From assembly GCF_949628265.1 (NCBI RefSeq), contig NC_088788.1:9672001-9736000 (forward strand): a stretch of DNA of 64,000 nucleotides, written 5' to 3'. The stretch is from Cloeon dipterum (taxonomy: Eukaryota; Arthropoda; Insecta; Ephemeroptera; Baetidae). Below the pieces are notes generated by a model. The model saw only the letters and a list, made by a program, of their open reading frames with translations. It was not told where the DNA came from and searched no databases. Shown here in pieces: positions 7,301 through 58,518 of this stretch. Both the position numbers and the translations under genes were made by a program. Within the stretch, counting starts at the first letter, position 1. Every line of letters begins with the position of its first letter.

Positions 7301-7362
7301 AATTTTTCGATGGAAACAGTTCCATCAGGTTCACTGGTCAAAAGTTTTGATGTAATTTGCAT
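4346..7362 (-). CDS. Uncharacterised leucine-rich-repeat-like protein
   Basis: Not recognised by name. Minus-strand exons are 7362-7036 (start ATG), 6979-6419, a short tentative one 6163-6129, 5875-5805, 5674-5541, 5039-4693 and 4631-4346 (TAG). All phases agree and the sum is 586 residues. The 6163-6129 exon rests on a weak donor (GTGCAA) and is the least certain part. The protein shows spaced leucine patterns typical of degenerate LRRs, for example FPMLTKLQFFNLTSLATLEFF, CPKLQTLVMTKIAN, APNLRKVILCSLHVSEEQ and NLEELGDRH. No signal peptide, membrane helix or catalytic motif is evident. The first exon is not leucine-patterned, and I cannot see a clear F-box. It resembles the F-box/LRR-like or orphan LRR proteins that expand in arthropod lineages; that parallel is inference. 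Confidence 0.65.
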
Positions 7363-8583: not shown

Positions 8584-11500
8584 ATGTTTCTGTCGCAAAA
8601 CATGACACAATCTGGATCCAAAAAGGTATGTATGTATTTTCCGTATTTTCAAAACTTAAATCTTCTTGTGAATTCCTTTCATTAATGTACCAATCTTACA
8701 GCGTCTATTCAGCGAAGCTTTCGGTACAACTCAAAGCAGCGCAAGTCAATGTGCGGAGAACTTCCCAACCAGGTTCAAAAGTCTTCTGCAGGAGCAGCAG
8801 GTTGCCCTGCAGCAGACGAGACAGGACCTTTTGGACCCTGTAAAGAAAAACAGCGTCAAGTCCATGGTTTTCCTTGCCAATCAGCTCGTTTCTAAAGGCT
8901 CGTTGTCCAAAGTTTCCCTTGGCAAGCTGATTAGAAGCTTTGTAAGTTCAAATTTAATTTTTTATTATTTATTATTTGATTTTTCTTGAAATTCAGCGGC
9001 TTCCTTTGGAGCTGGTTTGGATGCTGCATTGTGCTGAACTCCTTCACTGCACCTTGTACCTGGAATCGTCAGTATATTTTGCTAATTTTACTCTTGATAA
9101 AATAAAGAATAAAGTAAATTAAAAAATTCTTTAATTTTAAATAAATGTTATCATATAATTTATTTCCTGTTAGATTGGATGAGGCAAACCTGGCGTCCGT
9201 GGGCGTCCGTCTCGCCAAGTTGGTGCAGGATGGCGCCGTCGTGTCTGTGGACCTGATCAAGAGCTGCGCCGCCTTGGCGCACGGCCCTGAGCCTCCCGCC
9301 AACCTGGCGCCTGTGGTCCGGACGTGCCACGCCCTGCTGGCTCAGGTGGAGCGCCGGCTGCCCTTCGAGGAGGAGGACAGTGCCGAGAAGGGGCCCTGGT
9401 GGCTGGCGCATTTGCAGCAGTCACTCAGTCCGGGCGTCTTTGCCAGGCTAGCCGGAAGCCTGCTCGAGGTGCGGCTGACGTCACCGCCGTTCATCAGCGT
9501 CCACCAGGCCCTCGCCAGGCAGCATGAGTGGAAATACCCTTTGCCTGCCTTCAAAATGGTACTTAGCAATTTTAAACTAAAATATTGAGTACAAAAAGGA
9601 AGTGTTTTTTTTAGCAATTTTATATAATTACAATATTTAAAATTTTGCACCAACTCGTCAAAAATCCCATTAAAATTTTGGCCAAAAGCGTAACGTAACA
9701 AAGGAAATGAAAAGCCGCACCAATAATTCCTGTCTTAAAAGTGGACTTACTTAGACTAAAAAATTATAAAACTCCCATATTTCCCATTCCTTAAAATTCC
9801 CTCTAACAATTGTAAGAGCTGAAATTTGCCAAGAAAAAAGTTAGCATCCCAATCAAGCGACGAATTATGCTATCTCCCAATTGAAAATCAAGATTCTTTC
9901 ACAATTCACCAGTTGCGTTAGCCCTTTATTGTTAGTGTCCAAATCCACTAATAGATTACGCCAGTGGTATGTTTAAATTTTAATTATTTTTGTGGCTCTA
10001 GCTATTGGAGAGTCAGGGTTCGTCGACAAGTGCTCTAAACCTGCTGACCAGAGTGATCAACGAGGCACGCGAAGTGAACTGGAAGTCCGCGCTGATCTGT
10101 GTCTCGTCCTTTGTTTCACTATACTCTGATGCCGACCAGAAGCTCTCAGGTTGGGAATAACTTTTAAATATTTTAATAGAGATGACTGACTCAGTAAAAA
10201 ATTAAAGTTCATAAAAAAATAATGATAACAGATGTGACTAATATATATTTGAAGCTAAAGATCAGCGATAGTAATTATTAATTCACAAAGACAAACTTTA
10301 AAATTATAAATTTTTCTTGTCGATTTAGATTTGGTGCGTGCGTGGTTGAGTCAGGCGCTGGAGCATCAGGAGCCAGAGACGCTTCTTCTGTGCTTCGTGC
10401 TGATTCGGCAGCTGGGCCACGCGAGCCCCACGGCGCCCTACGCCTCCTGGTTCAGAAACACGTTTGGCAGCAAACACAACACGCCGTGCAGGACGCCAGC
10501 TCACTTTTCCTATCTTCTTTCCTTCCTGAACCAACTGGTGCAGCACGAGCCACTCCACTGCCTCAAAACCCACCATGAAATGGTACCAAAATTTATATTT
10601 TTCAAGTATTTTCTTATTATTGAAGTAAACAAGAATCTCTCAGGCAATGTTATTTACTGCTGCTTAAAATCTGTTTTTTACCTAATTTGTTTTTTTAACC
10701 TATTTAATGCTTAATTTTCCATTCAGCCGCCATACGTGCCTGAGAAGCTTAGAAGTGAGCTGTCCGATTGGCGGACGATGCTGTTCACTCGGATAAAAGA
10801 TCTGAGTGACAGCAACCCTGGCGGCATCTTCCCAAGCGAGCAAGGCACCAGAACTCAGGTTCGTTGGGCGCTCTTTTGTTAGAAAAAACGCGTTGAGTTA
10901 CGATTGCTTCTCATAATCAAAAGCAGCAGGTGCAGAGCGACGTGGAAAAGGCGATTGCTCACTTTGAAAGTAGCAAAAAGGTGCACGAGTTGGTGATGAA
11001 GGCTGCGATATGCAGGAAGAAGTACTTTGACTCGAATTTTCTTCCGGCCCTGCTCATTCCAAGGTTTGAAAATTTCTTATTTTTATTTATTTAATGAAGT
11101 CAGTTCTGAATTTTATAAAATAATTGGTACAAAAATTCATTTTTAATGGAGCAATACCAAAAATAGGTGTAAAATAATTAAAAGTGAGAATAAGTGATGA
11201 AATGTCTTTTCCCAAGACAAAAACCTTCAGAAAATCGTTAGGGAAAAGGATTGACCCCATACTTTGCCGCCTAGATTTGCAGCTCTTTTCTGAAGAAAAT
11301 TAAAGAAACCTTTATTTCAAATACAAATTTTAACTTTTTCACTGTAAAGATCGTGAATCCAGTCTCCGGAATGAGTTGAAAAGCCTCTTGATTTTAGGGC
11401 TTTGAATTTTAGACGTTTGTACGCAAGAAAGGAGACAATTTTTGCTGTTTTTAGTCCATATTAGATGATTTATGAGCCGATTTAAACGGGTTTTTGACTC

Positions 11501-16491: not shown

Positions 16492-19400
16492 CTACTCGTC
16501 GTCGGAGAGGTCGTCCCTGCGACCCTTGTACCTGCAGCACAGGCTGAGGCAGAAGATGCGCATGCCGACGCGGAACGACGGACTCATCGTCACGTAGATC
16601 AGCGACTTCCAGAACGAGTTGAGCACGCCCACCCACACGATCGTGAAGTGCAGCATCGGCACCTGCAATTATCACAAATTGATCGATCATTAATTTATCA
16701 ATAGCAGCAGGGAAACTTTATTGAGGTCAAACATAATATTAAATATTCATAATTTAAAACTGATTGATATTGCAAATCTCCGAATGTTTCCAGTTTGGTT
16801 CTGAAAAATTTTAGTTAAATAAATTAATCTGAATTTTTCTTTCCTTTCTTCAAATGTACCTGCTAGATAACTAAATTATTAAAATTTATAACATGTAATC
16901 TGTCTATTGAATATGATATTTTTGTTACTATTTAAATTAATAAATATTCTAATTTTGAGGGAACGGCTTATATTATAAATTGCAAAAAAAATTTGTAGTA
17001 TCATATTAGGATTGTTTTGGTATGTATTAAATAGTGTTCAAAAACAGCTTACAATTAGTGAGGATGAAACGGAACAACGATCGAAATTGTTCTTCCTATG
17101 CAATGTGTAATACTCAAAAGAGGATTTTGCTACAGTAAAACTTCAAACTTTGCCAATTTTACCGAATATTTCCAGGACAGATTTCGATTCCTCTCGTCGA
17201 AATCTTCCAACGGTGTATATTTGGGGACACTTTGTTGTAAAATAAAATAATAATTCAAGCAGGGAGACAGCCATCATCATCACTATTTGAAAGAATGTTA
17301 ATTTTGAGCCACTCTTTTAAAACGTTTATAGCGTTCATTTAAGTTTGTACATTGGCAACAAAGATTTTCCTGATTTCCCGGGGTTTTACAGTACCAAAAT
17401 CCATATTTTAGAGAAATTTTGATGAAATTGTTACAATTAACTGTAAAAGTTTAAGGAATGGCAAAATTGGCTAGCACGTAAGTGTGTAAACTAATTAATA
17501 TATTTTAATTCTTGAATAAAATATAAATTTAAACATGTGTTCAGAGGCAGCGGGGTCCAGATGTGCGTTAAAATTGGTTCCCACTGCGCAGATCCAAGAT
17601 GGCGTCTGAATGTGGAAAACAAAAAGCTCTCTTTGGATTTCCGTGCGAATGTCAAGAGTTTGTTTTTACGATCCAAAAGACACAATTAATAAGTAATAAT
17701 TAAGTAATGCAAATTATGTCACAATATTGACGAAAACTTGGTTATTTTCGTGCATTTTCACGTGACCGTTTTTGTTTTTGCGCCATACTCCACCGGACGC
17801 CATATCTACGCGTCGCATGAATCTGGCCCATTGCTTCAGTGGCTCCTCGATTTCCGTGTTCTCCTTTTCACCACTAGCAAAAAGTGTGTGCTCAGCTTTG
17901 AGCTCGTCTCGCAGGATTTTTTGACAAAAATAAATAATTATTTTACACAGTTACGTGCTAGCCAATTTTGCCATTGCTTCTCAATTTAAAACTGTCCCAA
18001 AGTGTATGGAAAACATTACACTAGGAATTCTCAGCAAAAATCAGTAAAAAATGCTAGAGTGGTAAAAAATTGATTTAGTTTTTACCTGAAACCTGAGGCC
18101 GGTGCAGTACTCGTAGAGCCTGACGCCAGCGTAGGGCGCCCAGGAGAGCCAGAAGGAGCAGATGAGGACGAAGGACATGACGTGGCTGGGGTTGGACAGG
18201 TTCTCTGCGAGCGCTGTGGCGTACTCGCGGTCGTGGATGGGCACGCCGGATCGCACGCGTCGCATCACGGTGAAGATGTAGCCGTAGGTGTAGAAGATGG
18301 TGATGAGCGAAGGGCCGAGCACGAGGATGGCCATGGTGACCGAGTAGGCCATCATGTTGTCCCAGTCGAGCTGGCAGACGTAGGCCTCAGGGTCAAAGTG
18401 CGGCGTGCTGTAGTTGAGCAGCGGCGGGCAGCACAGCATGCACGACGAGATCCACGTGAACGCCATCCAGCACTGGCAGCGCGTCTTCGTCTGCACCGTG
18501 TCGTAGCGCAGCGGCTTGCGGATCGCCAGGTACCGGTCCACGCTTATCCACATGAACGTGTACACACTCACGCTCCACAGAGTCACTTCCACGTAGCCGG
18601 TCAGCCGACACACCATGTCGCCGTACACCCAGTGCTGCACGATCGCCGGGTACACCGACAGAGGCACCACCAGCAGCCCGCATAGCAGGTCGGCTACCGC
18701 CAGCGACAGCAGGTAGTAGTTGATCACCTCCTTCGGCCCTACGGGTCCACACCGAAATCACAGAGCATATATATCAGTTTCAATCAATTTTCAGTGTCAA
18801 AGGTAAAATGAAGTACGTATAATAAGACACTTTAGAGCAAAATCATATTGAATTAATTATTAAGATATGCTATAAAACATGAAAATGATTACTTATTGTT
18901 AGATGGAATGATAAAAATCAAGATTATATGGATAGTAATGAACATTAATTGGAAAATTCAAAATATTTTCGGAAACCTCTGTAAAAAATTTCGTTTTTCA
19001 ATTCACCAGTTGCGCAAGCCCTTAGTGTTCGAAGCGCCACCGTATACTTTCGATTTTAAGGCACTTTTCCGCTGGAATTTCAGACTCAATTAATCCTGCC
19101 ACTTTGCATTCTTCACTTAATATTTTTTTCTCTTGACGTGCTGAAAACCAAAATCGGTTAAGCCAATCACCGTAGAATCGTGAAAAACTGTTTTTTGAAA
19201 TAATAAATAATATTTTCCGACGTTTCTGGCTGAACTGATTTTTGTTCTCTCATGTCTAAAGAAATAACTCTAGAAGCTGAATGCACAACAGCAGGGTTGA
19301 GTCTGAAATCACAACAGAAGTTCATTAAAATCTAAAAGAACCATGAGTGCCATCTCTATCCGCGGATTCAAACACTAAGGGCTTACCCAACTGGTGAATT

Positions 19401-36827: not shown

Positions 36828-39800
36828 TCAATCGGAAAGGGAGGCGGCGGTTGCGTTGAGCGGCGCCGCGGACGCAATGAGCGACGAGGCGGTCGGCGCC
36901 AGCGTCGACGCTACCAGCGTCGTCAGCAGAGTCGTGGCCGCGCTCGTGGTGCTGGTGGCGGTGGCGACGATGGCTGCGGCGGTGGTGGTTGTCGGCAGGA
37001 CCGTCGTCGGCAGCGTGCGCAGCAGCGTGGGCAGCGGCCCGCCGGCGCACAGGCCCGCCACCGGGGGGCCCAGCAGCTCGTCCAGCAGGTAAGCCACCGA
37101 CGAACCAAGCGCCAGGCCCAGATTGTAAGACAGCGTCATTATGTTTCCTGACGAAAAGAATTCGGAAATCGAGTTCATATACACAAAATTGCGGAAAACA
37201 GGAGAAATTTTTGCAATTATTATTTACTCAATTCAGTTTCTAGCTATTTTAATAAAATTTAAAAAATATAAAAAAAACGAAAAGTATTTTGCTTTAATTT
37301 TAAATGAACTACCGATTTGATTATTTTAAAAATATAGTGTTATCTATTCTTTTTTTAAATTGCAATTCAACGTTCAAAAAGTTGAAATTTAAATCTGATT
37401 TCTGAGAATATATAGGCTCTAAAATAAAGATTTATGAAGTATTTGCACAAGATCAATCCCAAAAGGAAAAAATAATTTTCCCCAAAACTCAAGAAGCTAA
37501 AAATTGAATTTTACTAAAAGGTAGATTCTCAATTCGTTTGGACAATATGTTGTTTCTCATTTCATTTAATGCTATAAATTCTCCATTGATGAAAATTCGT
37601 TCAATTTTTTCTAAAAGTAAAAATTTTCCCGTTTAAACATTATTTATTATGCAATATTTTGGTCTGTGGTTTCAATAAAGCACTGTAAATCACCAAAATA
37701 GTCGAATCGAAAATTTTCTACCACTGAAATTAGTCCGACCAACATGGAATCCGTAGAATTCAAGCATTTTTGCGAAAAATCTGTGATTTGACGGTGTGAA
37801 AACAAGATTCAGAATCAATTGGTCCCTCAGAATACACAAAAACAATTTAAAAATCAAGAAAATTGCTCCATCCTGCAACTTTATTTCATATTTAGCTGGA
37901 AAAGAGAACTGCAGCGAGCCTTATATCTTTTAATGCAGATTGTTTTTCCGAAAGTGGGTTTAGATCACATGCATTATTATTTTATACCTTTTGTATAGTT
38001 TGCCTTTAGCGGGTACGATTTTGTAAAGAATATAGCATAAAAACTAAAATAAAAACAAACCTGTGAGCTCTTTGAACTCTTCCGGCACCTTGCTCGGCGC
38101 TTGGATCATGGGCACGCTGCCGATGACGCCGTTGGTCAGTCCGAGCAGGCCCGAGAAGAATATGGGCAGCCCGTCTCCAGGGATAAGAGGTGCGTGCCGC
38201 GGCGCCGCGCACAACAACAGCAGCGGGATCAGGAGGAAGCGCAGGCCGGCGCACCCGAGCAGCTCGCCACGCGACCACTGCCACGGCACTGACGCCAAAA
38301 TCTGAAATTCAAACAGTGGCAAAACCAATTATGTAGGATTTTAGATCAATTTCATCACAATTTTAAATCATATTCCATCAAGGCTGTTTCATAATTTCAG
38401 AATTCCGATTTACTATTCTAAAATATCACCAAAAACGCAATAAATGCGTGCCGCGGAAATTTGGCCGATCCTTCACCTTAACATCCCTAGTGCCCGCGAA
38501 GCAGAGGGATATATAAAGGTGTGCTGGGCGAGGGATCGGTCAAATTTCCGCGGCACGAGAGATTTTTCGTTCATTCACGGTAGTGAAAAACATCAAATTA
38601 AAAAAATCTGCATTTTGACAAACGCGGGAAAATATTCAATGAATTTTTCAGCATTTCTTTTTTGCTAACCTTTCCAAGGAGGTCGGCGCCGTTGAACACA
38701 GCCATGATGAGCACGGGCATCCACGAGCCAAAGTTGCAGCTGGTGATTTCAGCCTCGATGCCCGGGTAGAGGCAGAGCGTGACAAAGTAGGCAAGCCCGA
38801 TGGACAACATGTACGGCCACACGAGCCGGGCCACCTTCAATCGGTCCTCCAGTCCCTCTGCAACCCCGATTAAATGAGGACAAACCTGGCTTGAACGTCT
38901 CGCGACACTCACTGCGTAGTCCGCCGAAGCGCCGGTGCGGTTTGTAGGCGCCGGCGTGCGTGCTGCCGAGACGCACCACCACGTCCTCCACCTTGAAGGT
39001 TGGACCTGACGTCTGCTCCGTCCCACCGTCTTCCTCCGAAATTCTCATTGGGGCCTGTGTAATCGATTTTTAAATGGATTTGATTGGGAAAGTTGCAACA
39101 TGCTGTGCAATAACTACGCGGGATTTTATTAAATAATTACATTTGGTTCGTAGACAGGATTAGAAAAGCTGAAGCCTGACTCGGCAGGGTAGTCGACCAA
39201 CGGAGGTGGACTTTGCAGCTTCAGAACGCCGAACTGCCCACCAGGCTGCTCGTGCGGCTCCATCTGCGCAATTAATTAAAACGCGTTTGTATTTTTTTTG
39301 CTAATCAAGAAAAATCAGTACCAAGCCCATGTCCTCAGCAGGCTCGAGCACGATGCGATTGTTGCTGGCACTAGCGTCGCACAGCGCGATATAATAGTTG
39401 ACAAAGTCGGACTCGCGCACAATTGAGTGCAGGGCCGAGCACACGGTCACTGTCAGCAGTGACAGACCGAAGAAGAGCGTCGTGTTGGCGCGCTGGTCGT
39501 CAAAAACCAGCTTAGTAACAATCCGGTTTGCTGATACCAAAAAACCAGCCGCACCTGAAAATTCAAAATTAATATAATTTAAAATAAATTTGTAAAAATT
39601 CTCACTTTCTCCGGTCATAACAGCCTGCGTGTATCTACTTGGCAACATACTGGTGTAGCCGTAGAAGCTGCTTTGCTGGACTGAAAATAAAGTTATTAAA
39701 TTTAAAAAGTCTAAAAAAGGTAATACCTGTGCAGCCCAGGGCGACGACAGCAACCGCGATCAGGTTCGCTTTGTAAGCGAGCTCCGGGCCAAAGATGTTC

Positions 39801-40297
39801 CACCAGATTTCGCAGGTAGCCACGAAGAGCAGCGTGATGAAGGAGACGGCGTAGCCGAAATTGATTCTGGTGTTGAGTGACAGCGTCTCGACCAGCAGGT
39901 TGTTGAGCAGCACGGCCACGAAGGCTGTCAGGATATAAACGAGGGACATGTCGAAGACGATGGTCGAGCCAGGGAACCTGGTCTGGAAGTAGTCGACGGC
40001 GATGATGAAGCTATACGAAAAGCAAATAAGCGAAATAAGTATTTTTTATATATCTAATTTAAATAAAAATGCCGAATAAAACCTATTTAAACAGCCTGAA
40101 TTTATCCTATTTTTCCATAGCGAATTATTTATTAGTGTTTACCTGTTGTAGGGCAGCAAGAATCCGACTCCAGCCAGCATCAGTGCCGTATATATAAAAT
40201 TGCAGTGGTCCACGGGCGACTCGTGCACGTTACCCCGCGTCTTACCGCCCAATTGGAAGTAGCCCCGGCTGGGGCTCGTCTCCTCCATCTCAATCAT
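36828..40297 (-). CDS. Equilibrative nucleoside transporter 4-like / plasma membrane monoamine transporter
   Basis: SLC29A4-type (ENT4/PMAT) carrier that moves monoamines or nucleosides down their gradient across the plasma membrane. Nine exons, 40297-40143, 40010-39727, 39680-39606, 39554-39322, 39263-39141, 39054-38913, 38857-38670, 38301-38061 and 37147-36828, join in phase to 586 residues. ENT4 hallmarks include GFLLPYNSFIIAVDYF, STIVFDMSLVYIL, VQQSSFYGYTSMLPSRYTQ followed by VMTGES, and GNIMTLSYNLGLALGS near the end. A hydrophilic loop of about 90 residues between helices 6 and 7 is encoded by exons 5-6. The C-terminus is unusual: after the last recognisable helix there is a long Ala/Thr/Ser-rich stretch (about 70 residues) not found in the mammalian protein. 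Start: the first in-frame ATG, followed by an acidic tail before TM1. The gene is divergent from WBP2 across a 664-bp spacer. Confidence 0.9.
38448..38556. repeat. 109-bp perfect-ended hairpin in an ENT4 intron
   Basis: The ends 38448-38471 and 38533-38556 (GTGCCGCGGAAATTTGGCC...) are reverse complements with one mismatch. Pairing continues inward (CACCTT/AAAGGTG, ATCCCT/AGGGAT) to a loop near 38490-38510, so nearly the whole unit can fold back. It is GC-rich in an AT-rich intron. Likely a tiny MITE; a small-RNA hairpin is the alternative. Confidence 0.65.
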
Positions 40298-40961: not shown

Positions 40962-43900
40962 ATGTCCTTGAACACGGCCCACGCGAACTCGGGCGTTTTG
41001 ATTCACGCAGGCGAATGGTGAGAAAATCGCATCCAACTCGAAATCCGGGGCTGATTCATACATAGACTTTTTCCTTATGTGTGATTGCAAAATAAATAAT
41101 GTTTTTGCGGATTTGCGCAGTCTCTTGCTAATGGCCAATAGACTCGGCAGGGCAATTAAGTCGTCAATGCATTGAAATGCGATCCGAATTATCCATGTCA
41201 TTATCGATTGAATGTAATTCCGGTTGCCTTGTATATACTTGCAGCATTCTGCTGTTTTGCAACAATGTGACCCTGGACTTCAGCGGCGGCCACCAGGCCG
41301 AGATGAAGGGCAACAAGACAGGCCGGCTCTTCCTCACCACGCACAGAATGATCTTCCTGAACAGCGACGCCAAAGACAAAATGCAGTCGTTCAGCTTTCC
41401 GTTCGTCACGATGAGTGAGGTGGAACTGGAGCAGCCCATTTTCGGCGCCAACTTCATCAAGGGCAAGGTCAGGGCTCAGGACAACGGCGGATGGGTCGGC
41501 GAGGCTAAGTTCAAACTGCATTTCAAGCACGGCGGCGCCATCGACTTCGGACAGGCCATGCTCAAGGCCTCCCAAATGGGTTAGTCGAATTTTTGTTCTG
41601 AGTAAACATTTCGTATAATTGAGTCACTACCTCAGTTATGTAATTTGTATAATTATTATTTGATTTTAAACAGTCATAAAACTTGAAAGAAAACGGAAAA
41701 ATATTCATTTTTTGCTATCGTCTTTTTCAATAATATTTTAAATCTCTAATTTTAACCAATTTGTTTTCGAGATTTGTTGCAAAAAATTTGAACAGGATTT
41801 TTGTTAGATATAGATGTGATTTTTCCAGCTTTTTTACGTTTGGTACAGCATGATTTCACTACTAAAATATTTTAACTTAAAATTTAGGAAACTAGACAAG
41901 CAATTAACCGGTTTGTTTTTTTCTGGAAGTTTTTTCTTTGCTTTTTTTTAGTGACTTTTATTTAGTAACAATTCAGTGAAATTTTTAACCCTGCTACAAT
42001 TTTATTTTCCAGCGTCTCGGAACGGTCCTCCGTCAGCGCCACCGGCCTATGTGGCGCCGAACGGCGGCTTCTACCCGGCGCCGCCACCCGCGTACACGCC
42101 ACCCCCGAACGGCTACTATGGCTGGACGCCACCAACGAACGTATTCCCCGACCAGCCGGCTGCTAACTCTGTCTTTATGACCGACATGCCGCCGCCCTAC
42201 CCGGGCATCAACGGATACAACGGCTACGCGTCGGCCTCGGCGCCGCCCCAGCAGGCCATGCAGCCGACGGCCGCGCAGGCGAAGGCCATGGAGGCTGCCC
42301 AGAGTGCATACTACGACCCAAACCGACCTCAGTGCGCTTACGTGCCGCCTCCGGCCTACTATGTGAGTACTTTTGGCTTTAGTTTTTCTCTGGGAACTGG
42401 GATTAAGAAAGAGTTGCAAAAAAACGCTATTGAAAAAATATCATTATAGTTTTTTCCAAATTTGCCGTTATTTCTGGGCACGTGAAAATTTGTCTACCGA
42501 AAGCAGGGTTGCAAGAAATGCAGTAAAGTGGTATTAAGCGTTTTCAATTTTAACCAGGCTATGTTTGCACCTCAGTGTTTGATAAAATTCCAATTATTAA
42601 TAGCTCTTAACCTTGACTTGAAAAATTGTCAGAGAAAAATAATTGGAGAAATTGAGGCAGCATATAATGGCAATTTAAAAGATAAAATCTGCACAGCAGA
42701 GAAAATTTTGACAACACTGACCGCAAATTTTAGATTTTCACAGAGGAAAAATGGAATAAAAAACTTATTTTTTGCACATCTTGCACAAGAAATTAGTAAA
42801 AGTTGAGTGGTAAAATCCAGTGGTGAAAAACCGGGTGGTAAGCAAATGCAACCCTGACCTAAAGATAAATAACACCCTAAATGTCATCTCTGCGTCTCTG
42901 AGTGCCCTGGGAGCTCCCTAAAGTTCAAATTGAACATATCCTGTTCGCTCTCAACTCGGCCGTTGCAACGGTGTGCAGATCTTGCAGATCAAACCAAAAA
43001 AGGGGGTCTTTAAAGTGGCCATTTATGAGAATTGAATGATTCAATGTTCTAGGGCTTTCCTGACGTCAGCGTTTAATTTCTTTCCTGTTGTGAGAACCTT
43101 ATCTGACCTCAGAAATAATATGAGAACGTTTAGCCAAAAAAATACACTAATTTGAAAATTCCAAAGAAATGTGGTTTGAATTTAAAAGTTGTTGACCGTC
43201 TAAATAGGCATCTTTTGGGCATAAAGTTTGATTTTCTAGCTTCTTAGAAATATATATAATCTCCGAGGGGCTGATTTTCCCAGATTTCTCCCTGATTTTC
43301 CGGGAAAACGGCCTCAATTTTTTCTGATATTTTGGCACCCTAACAACATACCTAAAAATCAAAACGACGCTCAACATAATGTTGGAAAATTGTAGACGTT
43401 ATCGAAACTCTCGCCAAAACACCAATTTTTCCGAGACGTGATATTTTTTTTCAAGTGACGTTGAAAGCCGTCAATAAGTGGTGCCCTTGTCCATTAAAAA
43501 TACTTCCATGCTTAAACGAATTTTTAATTTCAATTATTGCTGGTCTTAAAATCGCAATTAAAATATATTTCATCTTTACCTAAAAAGTCGATCAAAAATA
43601 ATTCGTGAATTATTTTTATGGGCTCCACAAATTCCAATGAAACTGAAACTGTTTGAAAATGTAATAAATATGCACTCTTTCATTAATTTTATGCTGATCC
43701 AGATAGATTTAGACTATTTAGAGCCACATTAGATGGTTTTGGCAATATTTGACAGTTTTTAAATGACTTAAAATTGTTTGGTTTGTGATTCGTGCACTTT
43801 TGATGGTCCCGCAATGATTTAAAGCTAAGATTATAGAAGTCGATCGTTTAAGTTTCACAATCCTAGGAATCATGGTCATAGTAGAAAGCTGATTAACTTG

Positions 43901-43964
43901 GATTCTATTTTAATTGCAGGAACCGCCGCCGGCCTACCACGACGCGAGCAAGAAGGACCAGTGA
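40962..43964 (+). CDS. WBP2: WW domain-binding protein 2
   Basis: Adaptor and transcriptional co-activator that binds WW-domain proteins such as YAP/Yorkie and NEDD4-type ligases through PPxY motifs. Exons 40962-41017, 41245-41579, 42013-42362 and 43920-43964 join in phase to 261 residues, the same length as the human protein. Residues 1-130 form a GRAM/PH-like domain: MSLNTAHANSGV, GRLFLTTHRMIFLNS, DKMQSFSFPF and QPIFGANFIKG, ending GGAIDFGQAML. The rest is Pro/Tyr/Ala-rich with PPAY at several places (SAPPAYVAP, PPPAYTPP, PPPAYY) and the final EPPPAYHD encoded by the last exon. AATAAA at 44068-44073 follows the stop by about 100 bases. The intron before the last exon carries a small hAT-type element. 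It is convergent with SELENOM. Confidence 0.95.
42504..42856. mobile_element. hAT-type MITE with 8-bp target duplication
   Basis: 353-bp element in the last intron of WBP2. Termini are CAGGGTTGCA and its exact reverse complement TGCAACCCTG, the CAGGG-type ends common to hAT elements. It is flanked by ACCGAAAG (42496-42503) and ACCTAAAG (42857-42864), an 8-bp target duplication with one mismatch, the hAT length. No transposase is encoded. Confidence 0.75.
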
Positions 43965-44182: not shown

Positions 44183-44416
44183 TGGTCGTATATAGTCTAT
44201 TAAATTTGAAGAAAATGCCTCTGATGCTTTTGTCCAAATTTGAGGTTGTAGACACGCTTGTACATTTGTATGAAAATAAACGCGCGCTTCATCACCTCAA
44301 ACGGGTTTCTCTGTCCTTTAATAAAACCACTTTCACTTATAAATTTCACAAACAAAAAATAAAAAAATTTATTTGTGTAGAAAAGGGAATAGTTTTAAAG
44401 CGAACGGAGCGACAGG

Positions 44417-44487
44417 CCAGGCGTAGAGAGCGTCGGCAGGCAACCACCTTTCTCAGGTTTTAGTTGTCCACGTCATAGGTCGTCTGG
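44417..44487 (-). promoter_or_regulatory. SECIS element (selenocysteine insertion hairpin) in the SELENOM 3' UTR
   Basis: RNA hairpin that recruits SBP2/eEFSec so that the UGA is read as selenocysteine. On the minus strand, ATGA (44476-44473) is followed after 11 bases by AAAA (44461-44458), and the partner GA lies in CGA (44435-44433). This is the SECIS core: an ATGA...GA quartet with an A-rich bulge at the canonical spacing. GTGGACAAC pairs with the GTTGCCTGC side (helix II, one A-C mismatch plus wobbles). CCAGACG pairs with CGCCTGG (helix I, one mismatch). A small CCT/AGG stem above the A bulge makes it form-2-like. The hairpin lies about 50 bases past the TAA. Confidence 0.85.
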
Positions 44488-44533: not shown

Positions 44534-45044
44534 TTACAATTCATGCCGCTTTTCTTCGGACTTCTTATGGAAGCCGTGCTCAGCCAGCAGCTGCAAACAC
44601 TCCTCTCTACTCTTCTCCGACAGGGACACCCTGGACAGCTCCTGAAAGGTCACCTTTAGGACTGCTGTTCAGATCAAGTCAATATTATGCAGTACCTTAT
44701 CATCTTTGTTAAAGAAAACCGCCTCTGGAGGCGCCCCTGGAACACTTCTGAAGATGGCTTCGCTTCTGTAATAATTTAAAATGCCATTAAGTTTAAGTAG
44801 AAATTAAGTTTTTATCTTACATTTGAGGAATGTCTTCGTGAATGAAGGCTTTGACCTCCGGAAGCCGGTTCAAACGTCATCCACCACAACTCTGCAATTA
44901 TTAGCAAAAAACTCAGATTAGAATCACTAGTTGCACAGGTATTGCAACCTCTATGGTGACCCTGACAGCTTTGTCGTCCTCCTCGGGCTTCTCGATGGCC
45001 ACGGCCACCGCAAGTAAAAGGCAAAGTGCAGACAAAGTCCTCAT
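44534..45044 (-). CDS. SELENOM: Selenoprotein M (UGA-encoded selenocysteine)
   Basis: Thioredoxin-fold redox protein of the ER lumen. Exons 45044-44949, 44891-44821, 44765-44696 and 44641-44534 join in phase to 114 residues. Residues 1-16 form a signal peptide (MRTLSALCLLLAVAVA). Exon 2 reads Ser-Cys-Gly-Gly-TGA-Arg-Leu-Asn-Arg-Leu; the TGA at 44879-44877 sits where vertebrate SelM has Sec in CGGU, followed by the conserved LNRL and EVKAFIHEDIP. Then come RSVPGAPPEAVFFN (family pattern PGADPELV) and ELSRVSLSEKSREE (family LERIPLSEMTREE). The protein ends in RHEL, an ER-retrieval-like tail. The TAA stop is at 44536-44534, with a SECIS hairpin downstream. It is shorter than mammalian SelM (about 145) because the C-terminal extension is missing. 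Reading TGA as stop would leave a meaningless 36-residue product. Confidence 0.93.
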
Positions 45045-45796: not shown

Positions 45797-48093
45797 ATGG
45801 CAACAAAAGGAGAAGAAAAGGAAGAAATTCCTCAGAAAATGGAGGAAGCAGGTACTGATTGAATTTATAAGGAGAGCTCATAAATACTGAAGCACGAGGA
45901 AGTTGAAATTTGTTTGCGTTGGGTGGATTTTTGTCATGGAACGTCAAATATTTTTCTCGAAAAATCGACGAGGGCAGCGTGCGATGCAAATATTTCTGCA
46001 AGTAATGCAATGGTGACAATTTTGCAGCGAGCGAAGCTACGAGCGAGTCTAAGACTGACTTTTTGGCGACCGTGAACGAGATACTGAAAAGCCAGGAAGA
46101 CCCTGAGGAGGAGGAGGAGGAATCAGGCGAAACAGTCAGCTTCAAAGTGATCTTCTGCAAAACCAAGCACGAGGTCGAGTTTGGCTTGGATAAAACAATC
46201 CTCAAACTTAAAAATCACCTTCAAGATATCATTGGTAAGCAAGACGCTTGCTCTCCAGTCGCGAAGACTTTTTACTGAAAAGCCCTGTGTCTGTTCAGGC
46301 GTTCCAGCCTCCATGCAGAAGTTGATGATCAAAGGTCTGGCGCAGGACGAGCAGACCCTGCGAAGCCTCGGAGTGAGCAAGGGCGCCAAGGTTCTGGTGG
46401 TCGGCTCAAAGCTGGACGACGTCATCGCAGTGTCAGCGGCGTCGCCGCGGGACATAGCAGCCTCCGAGGGCAATGTCAAAGAGAAAGAGTCCTATTGCTC
46501 CATGGCGATTCACAAAAAGGTGCTCGACAAGGGCATTCCTGACGAGGCCATGCCCGGCATTAAAGGAGTAAAGGTGCGGTGATTAATTTTCTTACAGGTT
46601 CCAAAAATCCGCAGTTATGTAAGGGATTATCATTGAAATTATTTTGTTTAAGGGAACAATATTAATTGGACGGTGTTTTGCTTCAATTATTGCAATAGGT
46701 TGTTACACGTGAAATACTTAAAAGCCAGTTTGTCCTTCAAATCTGATAATATTTTGAATGTACACCAATTGACAAGGTAGGTCAATCAATAGATCATTTT
46801 AAACTTTCCGGAAAGTTCCTATTTTTTAAGTCATGTCTGTGAAAACCTCGTGTTGCTTATTCCAAAATTTTTGAACTGATTAACAACAAATACAGTTTAT
46901 TTGTTGTTACTTGAAAACTTAAAACACATTCAAAATTGGTGTAACTTTCTAATCTTAATAATTTAATTTTACGGAAACTTAAAGAAATGCAAAAATTACA
47001 AGAACATTTTGATAAACAAGGATCAATGTTCTAAATTTCAGCTTTATGGGGTGTTTTAGTTTGCAATTAAATTTTTCAAAAAATAATGAGCCTAAAAAAC
47101 CTGAAGGGAAAGCTTAATTAATTTTTTATCGCTAAAATGCCCATGTTGGTGACATGGAAAATGATTTTTAAACAATTTTAATTTAAACTAAAGATAATGA
47201 ATATGTTGTAAATCAATTTATAAATATTTAACAATTTTTCCGTCCTCCTGAGAGTTCCCTTGTAAGCCTTTCTCTTTAAAATATATTAATTTTTCTTCGT
47301 TGTTTTTGTCAAAAATTAAAAATATACATTGGGAAACAGAAAAGACCTTAAAATAAATATATAAAATTCCAATTTGAAATGATCAATAGTATGATATTAT
47401 TAAAAAGAGAAAAACATTGGAATCAGATTTACCTTTCACCCTAAATTCCTGGAATAAAATAAATTTAAAGATTCGATGTGTCTTTTCAGGAGGCTCTGCC
47501 ATCCATTCCGCTGTACGGGATGCTCAACAAGCAGGGCAAGAAGGTGAGACTGACTTTCAAGATGGAGCTGGACCAGCTGTGGATCGGCACGCTGCAACGC
47601 ACTGACAGGGTGCCCATGAACTCAATCAAGGCCGTCGTTAGCGAACCTATTACAGGCTATGAGCAGTACCACATTTTGGTCAGTACAAATAATTAGAAAA
47701 ATAGGCAAAATTTCTGGAGAAAAATAACGAATTATTTAACCTAAAGTAATATTCAGTATTTGATTAATTTGCATATTAATTCCATCTGAGCTTCATATCC
47801 TACAAACTCCGTTGAATAAAAAATTTTGAATCCAAAGGCTCAAAATTTAATTTTTAAAAACAATATTTAAACTTTTTCATGAGGTAGTTACTTGAAAAAA
47901 ACGCAATTCGATAGAGTTAAATTAAAATTAACCTCCATAAAAATTCCACTAAACAAATTTCCCGTTCAAATTTGCGTTTCAGGCGCTTCAGTTGGGTCCG
48001 ACGGAGGCGTCTCGCTACTGGATCTACTGGGTGCCGGCGCAGTACGCGGACGCAATCAAGGACGCCATCCTGGGCAAGTGGCAGTACTTTTAG
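45797..48093 (+). CDS. UBFD1: Ubiquitin domain-containing protein UBFD1
   Basis: Ubiquitin-like-domain protein of poorly known function, linked in mammals to ubiquitin binding and NF-kB signalling. Exons 45797-45851, 46028-46234, 46299-46573, 47490-47678 and 47983-48093 join in phase to 278 residues (human about 309). An acidic N-terminus (EEEEEESGE) is followed by a ubiquitin-like fold at about residues 50-120 (VSFKVIFCKTKHEVEFGLD, MQKLMIKGLAQDEQTLRSLG). The conserved C-terminal domain follows: HKKVLDKGIPDEAMPGIKG, IPLYGMLNKQGKKVRLTFK, DQLWIGTLQRTDRVPM, and LGPTEASRYWIYWVPAQY ending LGKWQYF. AATAAA is at 48336-48341. The start ATG lies in a short first exon with a good donor. Confidence 0.95.
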
Positions 48094-49849: not shown

Positions 49850-52800
49850 TCACAACTTCATCTCCCACAGCACCATGTGCGCGTCCCTGCTGTTGAGCTC
49901 GACACCGACACCGCCGCCGGCCGCCTTGACGGCCGCCTTGTCGGCCGGCCGTCGGCAATTGATGTAGCCGCACCCGCCGACCAGCGTCATCACGGTGCGA
50001 GGCACGTCGACGACCACCTTCGGCCCGCCGACACCGCCGTCCGCCGGCCCTCCGGCCACTGGAACCGCGGCCGACGCGGCGGCCAGCTTGGTGCTCGAGG
50101 TGGCCAGCACCTGCACGCTGTCCTCCGAGCCCGACGACGTGTACAGTGACGATGAGCGCGAGTCCACCGACCAGTTGGACAGGTCGAGAGAGCGCGGCCG
50201 GCTGCTGTTGATCCGCAAACGACGGTCCAGGGTGTTCACCTGAGAACAAAATAAAAAGAAATTTTTATTCAGGAAATGAGGAAAATAGTGGTGACACATT
50301 GATAGAGCTTGTTAATTTCCATAACCAGCGGCTCGTTGGCTCGCATTGCTACGGCATTTTCAGGAGTGTCGAAAAACAGGGTTCGCCAAAACCCGCTTTT
50401 TCCCGGAAAAACCCACTGCATTGCAAAAAACTGTTTTTTGCGGGGGTTTCTGCGCATTTTTCCGAAACACATCTTATGGAAAATAAAAAATTCTAATGAT
50501 AAATGACAAAAAATAGAGATTTTTCAAAATCAGTATTAAAACCACTCCACCAAGAGACTGAAAATTTTAACTCTTCCGAAATTTCAGACTCTTTTGGAGC
50601 GAAAATTTACTATTAAATTCGGAAAAATGCGGAAAACTCCAAAATTTTTGGGCTTTTTCCAGCCGGATTTTTGCGCATTGCAAAATTGGTGAGCCCTGCA
50701 AAGAAACGGGAGATATTTGAGCTGTTCCGGGATCTAATACTGACTACCCATTGTCAGAGTTCGCAAAGTTATGGTTAGTTTAGTAGCTCGAAATTCTCAA
50801 AGAGCTCGATGGGCTGAGAGGCGCACCAGCGCTGACTGGCCGCTTGCCCCACTTGCTGTTTTTTGCACCTGTCCAGCGGCATTGTGGGTAAATGTCTGGA
50901 TGAGTTTCAATAAAAGACCTCGGTGAAAAGAGGCGTAAAGATGACCCCATTGCTCCCAAGCTTCTCTGCAGCCACTGCGGTCCCATGTTATCCGCTCGAC
51001 GGTGTTATAATTGGGGCCCGGTGAGCTCATAGCCGATGGGATGTGCTGAGCAGAGGTTAAAAAAAAATGAAAATAAAATATATGGTCAGTTTTCATGAGC
51101 TAGAACGTTTTGAAGATGAATAATAAATTTTAAATGAATATTCCTTACAATTTTCATCAAAACAATCAGGAAAACCTGTAAGAATACTATGCGAGAGTTA
51201 AAAAATCTATATTTTGCTAATGATAAAACTCTTCCTTAAAATAGAGGATCAGAAGAAGTAGCAACGCACTTATTTATTTTGTAAATTAGTTCTTAAACAT
51301 TATTTGGACAGTGAGGATAGCAAAAATTCGTATGTAAGTTTTTAAAAACAATTTAATCCGCTTGGCGATGTTAATGGGACTCCGCGAGCTCATTTCCCAC
51401 GGGATGCACTGAGCAGATATTTAAATGTTATGTCTCTTGAATTAGAGCAACGATCAGTACATCAGTAGCCAAAACTAGAGGTACAGTTGCTGAACAATCA
51501 GAACATACAATAGGTACAAATGTGATAAAATAAAATATATCTACGTAGAGCCACTCGTGGAACCAGTGATTTTTAATTCACCTTCATCATAACAGTGCAT
51601 CTGATTTCTTATTTAATATTATGACGAATTCAATTTGTAGCATTTAAATTGAAATAATTTCGTAAAGAGTAAAATTAATCCTAAATATTCAAGATAAAAT
51701 AAAATGAAATGAAATAAAATTTATATATTTTTAATTATTATTATGGAAAAATATATTAATGTTGTAAAATAATATGAACGAAAATTTAATGTTTTTTCCA
51801 TCAAATGAAAATAATTTGATTAATTAAAATGGTTTAATAAATTGTAAAGCGATTTTCATTATATTATTTTCAAGTTTAATTAAGAAGGCTACGAGTTTCA
51901 AAGGAAACGAAACTTATTGTTAGTCAGCTAAGAACTTCCACGTCTGAGGCATCAAAAAGGAGCCGAGAAATTGGCATGAAAAAGCTAGGAAAAATATTTT
52001 CCTATGAATGTAATTATAGGCTCGAAACAATAAAAATATATTGATAATTAAACGTGACTTAAAATTAAACAAAAAATTGGTTCAATGAACAATTTTCAAC
52101 CGGAAAAATAGATAAAAAGAGAAAATGAAGTTTTTGATGGCTCACCTTGCGAGGGATGGCAGCGAGCTCAGGGTCGCTTCCGCTCTTGCGCATGGCCGCT
52201 TCGAAGTCCGCGGCTGCTGCGGCCTTGGCGGGCGACTCCTCCTCATAGTCGCGAACGTTCATGAGCTCTCCGTAGAGGCCGTAGACGTCGCAGTCCTGGC
52301 TGGTGTTGAGGCCGGAGAAGGCGCCGCGGGGCAGCGTCTTGGAGGCGCGGCGGCCGGGGTCCTCGCGAGGGGCCCGCCGCCGCACCACCACGGGGCTGCT
52401 AAGCTGGTGACGCAGTTTGGGCCCGTGCTGGGCCGGCAGCTGGGCCGCCGGCAGGGCCCCTTCAGAGAGCTGCTTCTCCAGGCGGCCGCGTTCCGAGTCG
52501 GAGCTGGCGCTGCTCGAGCTGCTGCTCACCGACGGCCGGCCCGGCGCCGCTACGTCCGGCGGCGCCCGCGGCTGCAGCGCCAGCAGGAAGGTGACGGGGC
52601 CAAAGTGGGCGTGGTGCGAGAGGTTGGCCCTGCCGCTGATGATGGGCACTCCTTCCAGCCGCGGCAGCGGAATCGTCAGGCACACGCCCACATTGGTGCC
52701 CACCCAGAGCAGCCCTTTCGACGCCAGCAGCGCCGTCACGTGCACGTTCTTCGGTTTCATCTGGTTCTCTGTCAGTCCCCGCGTTATGTTCGACGCAACG

Positions 52801-55800
52801 TTGATGTCCTGCAGGTGCTTGAACGTCTCCGTGTGGTACAGGCAGATGGTCGATGAGTTCTTGTGCGAGATCCACAGCCCGATTCCAGAGTGCGCCATCA
52901 GGTTCACGTTGCCCACCTGCTCGTGCTGCACGCTGAAACTCTTCTGCAACAAAAAATTGAAATAAATAAAGATAAATTCAAATTTTTATTCAGATAAGCA
53001 AACACGATAATAATAAGAAAAATTTCTATCGCCATATTTTATAATGAAAACTAATTATTGAGATATATTGAGTAAAATCTGCTTGTTTGAATTGAATTTT
53101 GGGCAATTACCAACAACATGTAAAACAAATATGCGTTAAAGCAGTAGCAGTACTGCACGCTGTCAGGGATTTGCACGTAAATCAATGAAAGGAATAAGAG
53201 AAACAAATCAAAATTTAACAAAATCAAAATATAATTTCTCTCTCAAATGTCTCATGTTCCATCTCTTGAAGCATAGCATAAAATTTAAAATAAAATCTGT
53301 AAATTTAAAAGGGCACAAATTAAACTAAAAATAATTCTTTAAAAAGTTTAATATTTATTGTTTTCAGTAATTATAATTATGTGGCAGGACGATTTAAAAG
53401 AGGATTAAAAATATAAAATTCTTAAGTTAATGCAACTTAAAACTCTACACAGAATAAATTATCCTGCCATTTAAGCTATATAAGACTTTGAATATTTGCA
53501 ATTTGGCTATGTATTAATCCAGAGTAGATGGAACCGATAGGCTGTTTATAATTATAAGATACAAAAATATCAGGGATATAACATTTATAATTTAAACTCT
53601 ATTTTCAATGAATTCTAAATTTTATTTACCTGCATATCTCCATTGAGCGAGTTGATGACCCAGACCTTCTTCCCGCAGGCGGCGTACATGCAGATGTTAA
53701 TCGGCAGCAGGGCCGACACGGGTTCCGAGCCCAGCAGAAGGCTCTGCGGCTCTTGCAGGTTCCACTCGCCATTGGTGCCACGCCGGAACATCAACACCGA
53801 GCCGCTGGCCAACGCGATGAACGTCTGGTCGCAGTGGTAGCGCGCCTGCTGGATGGCGGCTGACGCGAAGCATTCACCAACTTCAATCTGTTTCTCTGGC
53901 TCCTGAGCTGCGTAAATGAGGATTCTGAAAGGAGAATTTAATAAAATTAGTCAAAATTGAGTGATTTTCAAGTCAAAATTGTCAAAAATGATGTTTTTGG
54001 TTATTTAAATATACTTTTTTAAATTAAATCGTCATAAAAATTAAGTTTGCATTGAATCTAGCTGCTCAAAACTTTATGATTTCAGCTGTTTTCTAGCTAG
54101 TGAATAATTTAATTCTTGGATTTCTTTAAAATTTAAATTTAGGTGCAGAAAAAAAGGGATGCTGTACCTTCCGCTCTCGGTTCCAAGCCATACGCTGTCG
54201 ACCGAGAGTCCTGTGCCCTGAGCGACGCCCGGCACAAACTCCATGGCGGTCACTTTGGTCTCGACTAGATGCAAACAACTGAGCTCCCGCAGCCCTGCCT
54301 GCTGCTGCAGGTAGACTGTGATGTAGCTGGAAGCTCCGTCTGTGGTGCACACCCACAGGTAACTCTGCGGCCTCGGTCGTCTCGTCGGCTTCATCGTTAT
54401 CACCGTGTAAAAACATCCGCAGCTTACCTAAACGGAAAATTTAAAATTCCTGGCGGTTTTTAAATTATTTTTCGGACTGTACCTCAGTTTGATACTGCGA
54501 TTTCGTGACTGGGATAGCCTTGACGAACAGAGGCATTTTGGTAGACGGCCGCCGCTCCTGCTCGGGAATGTCCCAAGCTGGCGAGTTACTTGGATCTAGA
54601 GCTAATTGCGCCAACCTCAATTCTAAAAACACAAATAATGGGTTTAATAAATTAAATTGAAATAAAATATTTTTTTAATTACCTGTGCTCCACTCTTTCT
54701 TGATGTTGGGCGTTTCAGTCTGGAATGTGAACTGCTCCTCCTTGCCTGGTTTGGTCTTGATGGTGAACTGCAGGCAGCACGAGTCGACCCAGGCGATCTC
54801 GTCATCCTTCTTCTGAATCGACGCCTGGATACTGTCCATGATTTGCCTGCAGTGCTCCACGGTCAGTCCTTTGTAGTTGCCCCTGAGGCTGCTGGCCACC
54901 TCAGCGATTCTGCTCACGGCCTCGTAGTCGTGCATCAAGTCGTTCATTTCTTGACACAAGTTCTCGACGCCACCCGTTCCCCCGCCGCTGTTGCTACTCC
55001 GATCAGACCTGCGTAAAGTAAAATATTAGTTTAAATTAAACTAATTAAAATAAACTAATTGTTTAATCTTTTTTACAATTTTGCAAATTACTGATGTTTT
55101 AAATGTTTGAATTTACTATTTTAAATTACATATATTTATTCTTCTTTGAATAATATGGTTAAACTTAAGATAATCATCCGTTTCGTATTCGCAGTTGGGT
55201 TCCAGAACACAAGAAATCTAAATTAGTAACTGGATCTTTTCAACACCTTAATTTTTATTCTTATTTTTATTTAACGAAACACCTACCTAAGACTTCCTCC
55301 TCGGTTGAGACTGGCGGTGAGCATTCTGCTGAGGGTGGGGGAGGTGCTGGTGTCCTGGACTTCGACGTCTGTGACCGGATAGGTCCACTTGAGGCTCAGT
55401 CTTTCGGTGCTGCTGAAATCGTCGGCGGCCTTTGGCGCCACGGACACACACACGAGCAGGTCATTGAGCAGCAGCAGCCGTCTGCTCTTGGACTTGGTGA
55501 TCAGGCCGGACTGGTTGAACTCGAGCTGCGTCACGTTGTCCTCGCGCAGCAGGTATCGGTTGCTATCCGACAGCGGACGCACCGAAAACTTGGAGCTCAC
55601 GTGTCGTAACATCTCACGGAAGGCCTGGAACTGCTCTGCCTCGCGCTTACGCTCATTCAGCATCTCGGCCAGTGACTCGAGTTGCGTCAGCGCTAGCTGC
55701 AGAGACATTCTGTCGTGGTGTCCGTGCGGTGTGTGCTTCAGGAGGTCCTGAAGACAAGCCACGGGTAAATATTACAAAAAGTGACAACGGATAATTTATA

Positions 55801-58518
55801 ATCCTTGAGAAATTCTAAGAATATATACAATATAAGGATGTCTATGAATATCTTGTAGAGTATTCTTTGATATCTAAGATATATCTTGCAGAAGATGTCT
55901 GGTCGCAGTTATTCTAGAAAGTCTTATTGCAGCCATTCATCATTCTTAGATGTTTGGACTAATTCCTATATTCCAGATTTTGTTCTTACCTGAAGGAAGA
56001 GAATAAACTGTGGAAAGCGTTGAACAGGTTTGACCATCAGGCCGAAGAAGGATAACCGATCGTGCGATTTAATTTGCTGGACCTGCGTGGTAAAAATACG
56101 TCAAAACCTGAGAAATCACCAGAAAACGCATCAAAATACCCTGAGAAAATCATTCAGTGTGGATTTTCGCTTCGATTCCTGCTTAGCCAAGTCCATGGCG
56201 ATGGAGAAGTTGTTGATGAAGTCGCTGTAGGCGTCGAGCACGACAGTCTTGGAGAAGGAGGCGACGAACACGTCGCCCAGCTTTTCATCGCGGTCCCAGT
56301 TCTTGACCGCGTCGGCAAGCGCGACGCGGAACAAGTTGTGGCACTGCAGAATCTCAGGGATTTTAAAGAAGAGAACGTTGATTTTGCTGGCACTTAGGAT
56401 GGTCGGGCTGCTTTCCTCCAAAGGCTTTTTAAAGTCCTGAAAATTGAGTTGATGGTAAGACCCTAAAATCATACCTGCATTCTGAGGAGGAGGGTTAAAG
56501 TTGTGTCAAACATTTAATTCATCCCCCTATCCACGAGTTTCACTAAAAAGACGCCATAACTCACATTGACAAGCCTCTGGAGGGTGGCCATGTACGAATT
56601 TTCGCTGTGGACAATGGCGGCGACGATGTGCCTGCGCTTGGTTTGCTCGCCGGAGAGGCCAGGCGGCGGGGGCGGCAGGGTGGGCGGCTGCATGCGTCGC
56701 TGGAAGGAGAAGCCAGCCGCCTCCTCCTCCTCGGGCAGCTGCGGCATCTTGGCCGCGGCGGCCGCCTGCAGCCTGTCCAGGTCATAGTGGTTGCCGCGGC
56801 GGATGGAGAACCAGCGCGACAGCCGGCTGCTTGTCGAGTCGGCCGTGCTGACGGTCTCCGAGGCGGGCAGCGTGCACGTTGACGACGCCAGCGACGCGGA
56901 GGACGCGTTGCGGCCTCCGCCGCCTCCCTCGCGCCACTTCTTCTCGCACAGCGTCAGCGCCTTGGTAAACGTCGATTTGATGTTGCCATTGCTGCGGCTG
57001 TCAAAACAGAAATAAATAATTGAGCAATCGTCTTCCAATTAAATTAATTGACGTGTTTTTATTTGGTTAAGCTTTGGAACTTGATAGACAGATTTCGTAT
57101 GACAACTTTTGATATCTCCGTACGATAACAGAAAATGTCACAGGGTCGGAAGGAGCGAATTGGCATGAGGTCAAATAATTTCAAGGAAGTCTATACCAAA
57201 AATTAGGCTTTATATACCATTAGAATGTGTCACGTAAATTGTGTTCGCCAAAATACTCAATTTTCAGGTTTTATGGGAAAATTTTGGAAAACTTTGAGGC
57301 CTCAGTATATCTCATCTTCCTGTTATGCAATTTAAAAAAATGAGTGCTTTGGATACCTTTCACCGAGCCTGATCGATCTACCACCAAATAGATGTCCCAG
57401 GTCGAGGTCATAAGTCACCACAATTAAATCTGGATTCTGATTAAAATTTTGGAAATGAGCTCACCATTTAAGAATTTGGAAAATGTGCTTCAAAGTTGTT
57501 CTTTGACACGTGTAAACTAGTGTGGAAATTTCACAGTGAAATCTTTTCCGTCTACGAGAAATTCCACTCCAAAAAACACGATTTTACCAACTCGTTTGTG
57601 GTTTCCTAATACTGTAAACTCCAAATCTCAGGTTCCAGCCGTCAGAATTGCAAAAACTGCACACCGTTAGACTTGCCTCGGCCTTTCCTGGCCCGCTGCC
57701 GAATCTCTCACAAAATGTAGAATGAAAAAATCCTCCGTGAATCGCATTTAAGATACAAAAAACGGTAGAAACAATTTTTGCTGCATTGTGCGCAAGTATA
57801 TGTTAAAAGAAAAATCGATTTTTAAGGACGATGGAAATCAAAAACTAATTTCTTTGAAAAGCGATTGTTATGCTACCGTTAGATCTGATATTAAATTTGT
57901 TTTGAGCGATGACAAACAGAAAAGGCCGTCTAGGAGAGGATGAGAGATTGACGTCACCACTGTTCTGGTCACGGCTCTGTTTACATTCTAGCAATTCATT
58001 TATCAATCGACGAAGAGCAAGAAAATTGTCATTTGCTTTTCAATGTCGTCATTTGACCAAATAGTAAAGAGCTCTTGGGATTTTCAACTCTTGATATATT
58101 TTCCGCCGGAAAAATTAAAGTTAAATGAATGAAATTCCTTTCGCAAGAATCTAATTTCGTTTCTCGAAGAAGCTCGAAAAAAGCACTTTCGGAGAGCAAC
58201 AGGTGGCAGTGGCTGGGGGCTGCCGAAAAGCGTTCAGTTCGGAGGGCAGAGATATACTGCTCCGTTAATTGAATTAATCAAGTTAAAAGGGAACTACTCA
58301 CTTGCTGCTGACGGAGCCGCGACTGCTGGGCGCCTTGGTGCTGCGTTCGCTCTCGTCGCCGGAGGAGACGTCAGAGGCGGCCGAGTCCCAGCTCTCCTCG
58401 GAGCTGCCCTGGCGCAGCACGGGGTTGGTGGCGGCGACGGGGCCGCCCGAGTCCACCCTGTCGGGGCCGCACAAGTGGGCCGCGTCGTCCCAAGAGCCCG
58501 ACCGAGCGCGAGGCTCAT
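49850..58518 (-). CDS. ARHGEF10: Rho guanine nucleotide exchange factor 10/10-like
   Basis: Activates Rho GTPases through a Dbl-homology domain. Minus-strand exons are 58518-58302, 56997-56565, 56436-56140, 56082-55990, 55747-55287, 55008-54683, 54622-54483, 54427-54168, 53924-53630, 52943-52146 and 50239-49850 (stop). Phases agree throughout, about 1230 residues. The first visible exon starts in phase 1, so at least one 5' exon is missing. The DH domain runs from [19 protein letters not shown] through [20 protein letters not shown] and [19 protein letters not shown] to [15 protein letters not shown], followed by a PH-like part ([14 protein letters not shown]). The C-terminal half is a WD40-like propeller ([57 protein letters not shown]). 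It ends [12 protein letters not shown]...HMVLWEMKL as in ARHGEF10L. The Ser-rich linker in the 52 kb exon and the Gly-rich one in exon 2 are lineage-specific. Confidence 0.92.
50240..52145. other. Last intron of ARHGEF10 with repeats
   Basis: 1.9-kb intron, longest within the 3' part of the gene. It holds the MITE at 50377-50698, an open frame of 99 codons (51096-50797, minus) without recognisable homology, and two related segments (51000-51058 and 51364-51422) sharing a GAGCTCAT...GGGATG...CTGAGCAGA pattern. Confidence 0.6.
50377..50698. mobile_element. CAGGG-ended MITE (hAT-like), second copy at about 555-895
   Basis: 322-bp element whose ends CAGGGTTCGCCAA and TTGGTGAGCCCTG are imperfect inverted repeats. 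A degenerate relative in the opposite orientation lies at about 555-895 in an SLC17 intron; it shares GCTGGAAAAA, TTTTCCGAATT, ACTGATTTTG and CTTCGGAAAAATG stretches in the same order. No clear 8-bp duplication is visible. It lies in the last intron of ARHGEF10. Confidence 0.6.

Follow-up and report, generated by a model that had tools for sequence, protein, structure and literature searches.

The window, as the 64-kb stretch of DNA analysed here is called, carries on its minus strand, from 45044 to 44534, a gene for selenoprotein M (SELENOM) whose four exons join into a frame of 114 codons (Table 1). The frame occupies 345 bases, made up of 36 codons, a TGA, a further 77 codons and a terminal TAA, and it is free of frameshifts, with the TGA at codon 37, in the context CGG-TGA-RLNRL, as its single internal stop. 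The three introns measure 57, 55 and 54 bases, lie in phases 0, 2 and 0, and are all of the GT-AG type. Read directly from the DNA, this structure agrees with the original prediction in its coordinates, in the count of four exons, in the reading of exon 2 across the TGA and in the agreement of the splice phases, and it adds the strand, which had not been given. The fraction of G+C at third codon positions is 0.61 in the 36 codons that precede the TGA and 0.61 in the 77 that follow it. A degenerate DNA motif for C-G-G-TGA-x-L-N-R, with A or G as the middle base of the x codon (TGYGGNGGNTGANRNYTNAAYMG), was found at a single place in the 64 kb; 100 shuffled sequences gave no instance of it. Furthermore, the window holds one copy of the gene, as the protein matches its own locus only at E below 0.1 (tblastn).

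Table 1. Features of the SELENOM locus and of the remainder of the window (window positions)
Feature	Position	Strand	Remarks
SELENOM exon 1	44949..45044	-	ATG, hydrophobic N-terminus MRTLSALCLLLAVAVA, signal-peptide-like by eye, then short acidic stretch to ...VTIE; donor GTTGCA
SELENOM exon 2	44821..44891	-	S-C-G-G-U-R-L-N-R-L-P-E-V-K-A-F...; acceptor TTGCAG, donor GTAAGA
In-frame TGA, codon 37	44877..44879	-	Aligned with the second Cys of the CGGC motif in selenoprotein M (PDB chain 2a2p_A)
SELENOM exon 3	44696..44765	-	Acceptor TTACAG, donor GTACTG
SELENOM exon 4	44534..44641	-	Stop included; C-terminus ...KSEEKRHEL, stop TAA; acceptor TTTCAG
SECIS-like element	44432..44476	-	AUGA, helix II, unpaired A's, small apical hairpin ACCU-GAGAA-AGGU, CGAC
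AATAAA polyadenylation signal	44368..44373	-	3' of SECIS-like element
Three open frames	4623-7413	-	Leucine-rich by eye; Pfam match in none
Fanconi anaemia group A protein N-terminal domain	10310-10714	+	46.3 bits
Rhodopsin-family GPCR exon	18041-18757	-	7tm_1, E 3.4e-38
Nucleoside transporter stretches	38598-40045	-	39304-39759: 43.8 bits; 38601-39044: 19 bits, below cut-off 29.8
GRAM-domain gene	about 41200-43964	+	54 bits; Pro/Tyr-rich tail; tail to tail with SELENOM; extent by eye
Ubiquitin-like-domain gene	45797-48093	+	Divergent from SELENOM; start and end by eye
RhoGEF, PH_19 and WD40_2 domains	52065-57038	-

The GRAM-domain gene on one side of SELENOM is presumably WBP2-like, and the ubiquitin-like-domain gene on the other, in which one exon stretch scores 23.4 bits against Pfam ubiquitin, just below the cut-off of 25.4, is taken by us to resemble UBFD1; we know of no bearing of either neighbour on selenium. 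Elsewhere in the window, the gene with RhoGEF, PH_19 and WD40_2 domains is presumably like ARHGEF10/17. No Pfam match was found for an open frame at 9145-9585, near the Fanconi anaemia group A stretch, or for positions 39638-40045 of the nucleoside transporter region.

In the whole-protein searches, for which the TGA residue was written as C, the SELENOM product matches Pfam Sep15_SelM (PF08806) over its whole length, with an E-value of 2.9e-19 and 69.3 bits against a cut-off of 26, and the 77 residues beyond the TGA, taken alone, match the same family (E 9.9e-16). Because of these matches, including that of the post-TGA part by itself, the frame beyond the TGA is a conserved protein and not a random extension. 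A phmmer search of the PDB at E up to 10 gave two matches, selenoprotein M 2a2p (2.5e-19), which we take to be the mouse protein, and a ParB-C chain (0.93). The alignment with 2a2p runs over 81 residues without gaps, with 37 of them identical, the part beyond the TGA contributing 31 of 71, and it sets C34-G-G-U37 opposite CGGC, with the TGA in the active-site column. Thus both the assignment to the SELENOM family and the placing of the UGA at the selenocysteine position, as originally proposed, stand on the Pfam match, the 2a2p match and the CGGU motif. Like the mammalian protein, the window protein appears to have a short N-terminal extension, free of cysteine, between its hydrophobic N-terminus and C34; unlike it, the window protein is without a flexible C-terminal extension and ends 6 residues past the aligned part. 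KDEL-like C-terminal signals confer retention in the endoplasmic reticulum (ER), and by analogy the KRHEL C-terminus may serve the same purpose.

Between the stop codon and the AATAAA signal lies a SECIS-like element whose AUGA starts at base 58 past the stop. Its helix II contains a single A-C mismatch and comprises 9 to 10 pairs, 10 if the first A of AAAA is paired, as in our own scorer, and 9 if AAA is left unpaired, which is how the fold has it. The additional apical helix places the element in form 2, to which SelM is assigned in the available text of PMC3328465, and the element shows the AUGA_AA pattern that is described for almost all invertebrate SECIS elements, many sponge ones excepted (PMC3473315, in the text available). 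Compared to the SelM SECIS of placental mammals, which are reported as the only vertebrates among those examined to have CC where all the others have AA (PMC3316567, text seen in part), the window element has A's.

The original prediction had credited the gene with its own SECIS. The part of this claim that stands is the presence of a SECIS-like element in the 3' UTR; what falls short is its score, since Rfam SECIS_1 gives 17 bits in the 361-base stretch searched, against a cut-off of 35, and for that reason the element is a candidate only. The corresponding E-value is 1.5, reckoned over all 4227 Rfam families on the 361 bases, in which SECIS_1 is the sole family at E up to 10, and the match places AUGA, AAA and GA at the conserved positions of the model. 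At Rfam's own thresholds, a scan of the whole window reported no SECIS, and its single match was a tRNA. Our own SECIS scan, which scores pairing directly, allows one mismatch, and had its rules set with the element in view, gave two matches over both strands of the 64 kb, of which the element is the better. Four of ten shuffled windows held matches in the same scan (1, 2, 2 and 3, for a range of 0 to 3), so a lone match over 64 kb means little and it is the position in the 3' UTR that counts: when the 300 bases that follow the stop were shuffled 2000 times, one shuffle yielded a match. An earlier scan, based on constrained minimum-energy folds, found five matches in the window, the SECIS-like element not among them. 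In the minimum-energy fold the upper helix and the apical hairpin are retained, but the pairing in the lower part of helix II differs from that required of a SECIS. Free folding improves only slightly on shuffled sequence (z-score -1.09), 32 of 200 shuffles doing as well. Overall, support is moderate for regarding the 3' UTR element as a good, though uncertified, SECIS candidate.

On this evidence, the locus is best explained, with a probability of roughly 0.93, as a functional animal SELENOM gene, probably of an invertebrate, and to judge from the sequence its UGA very probably encodes selenocysteine (Sec). The four exons would be spliced into a SELENOM mRNA, in whose 3' UTR SBP2 would bind the SECIS and bring in eEFSec with tRNA-Sec, so that the UGA at codon 37 would be read as Sec. 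The product is predicted to be small, to reside in the ER, to adopt a thioredoxin-like fold and, through the C-G-G-U pair of its CGGU active site, to act as a thiol-disulphide oxidoreductase. The working Sec machinery that the original prediction proposed for the genome would be implied by a conserved UGA together with a SECIS; within the window, both Rfam and ARAGORN find one tRNA gene, for tRNA-Gly.

One alternative is readthrough, with a standard amino acid rather than Sec inserted at the UGA, as proposed for the SPS1-UGA genes of Hymenoptera. Readthrough of this kind has been put forward for insects (PMC2500217 and PMC4561486, in the text available), and the score of the SECIS-like element, below the Rfam cut-off, would fit it. 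However, the element has the right form and lies 3' of the stop, and the TGA is followed by CGTTTG, as against the GGG-UG[C/U] hexanucleotide given for SPS1-UGA in the accessible part of PMC4561486, which makes readthrough of this sort very improbable. We see a similarly slight chance that the gene is a recent pseudogene, or that a sequencing error made the TGA from a Cys or other codon. The sequence is known from one assembly, as either would allow, but the only in-frame stop falls on the Sec column of the family, the remainder is intact, and a SECIS-like element is present 3' of the gene.

The least probable alternative, and a practically negligible one, is that the gene encodes SELENOF (Sep15), which shares its Pfam family with SELENOM: SELENOF has CGU and a Cys-rich N-terminal extension that binds UGGT, both of which are absent here, and SELENOM is given CGGU and short N-terminal and flexible C-terminal extensions (PMC10668967, in the text available), whereas the window protein carries CGGU and its residues 17 to 33 are free of cysteine, and the sole family chain found by phmmer in the PDB is selenoprotein M. 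Because its product has the CGGU motif and no Cys-rich N-terminus, the window gene belongs to SELENOM and not to SELENOF. The C-terminal extension, which the same review gives as a contrast to SELENOF, was not treated as defining SELENOM, as invertebrate members may lack it.

Matches of the motif in three stretches of viral contigs (L001 to L003) were considered as relatives and rejected. In two of them (L001 and L002) there are stops on both sides of the motif, and in L003 the stops precede it and the frame then stays open as far as the sequence was read. All three are taken for chance, because the window protein matches them by tblastn with an E-value of 0.63 at best, over 16 residues. A scan of viral contigs at the protein level, with six peptide patterns that leave out the CGGU motif, matched 13 stretches, among which tblastn found no relative.

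Returning to SELENOM as the preferred reading, an arthropod host is plausible from the short introns and the gene content. The original prediction had treated a UGA-containing SELENOM in an arthropod as a surprise. For arthropods at large this does not hold, because SelM is named in ticks and in penaeid shrimp, and arthropod SELENOM as such is, according to the partial texts available, already known. PmSePM of the tiger shrimp Penaeus monodon is described as a full-length selenoprotein M precursor that matches its counterpart in Litopenaeus vannamei (PMC3036150, available in part); it combines a signal peptide with a Sep15_SelM domain, the latter shared with the window protein, and its 131 residues compare with 114 here, a comparison by description and not by sequence. 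SelM is likewise named for ticks, Amblyomma maculatum among them (PMC3840058, available in part). Furthermore, a centipede is reported to have 20 selenoproteins in total, and many selenoprotein genes are mentioned for shrimp, as unpublished data (PMC2375036), both in partial texts.

For insects the surprise is justified, as the sets reported in the texts available are small and do not list SelM. The selenoproteins named are SelH, SelK and SPS2 for Drosophila and mosquito (PMC2500217), and MSRB1, TR, SPS2, GPX and SelenoK for Paraneoptera (PMC7376646), and the presence of selenoproteins is described as variable even inside beetles (PMC5330540), each in the part of the source available. In what is available of a collembolan genome paper, four SECIS elements are reported, the genes unnamed in the text. 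Among the matches listed in the open-access literature, taken as main text exclusive of supplements and available in part, there was no report of SELENOM in insects. Two insect genome papers that contain the string 'selenoprotein m' were rejected, their actual wording being 'selenoprotein machinery'.

The correct gene model and the SECIS candidate are useful in themselves, because standard gene prediction takes the UGA as a stop and may truncate or drop such a gene. Beyond this, the family is known and the gene unremarkable within it, unless the host animal is an insect; in a crustacean, myriapod or chelicerate, SELENOM is expected. In an insect host the find would be more notable, given the selenoproteomes so far reported in the texts available. 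It is possible, although we hold it to be doubtful, that the host belongs to an early-branching insect order and keeps a Sec-containing SELENOM absent from reported insect selenoproteomes, in which case the large selenoprotein loss would postdate the base of Insecta. In a hexapod host, SELENOM would serve as a marker with which to date selenoprotein losses in the lineage.
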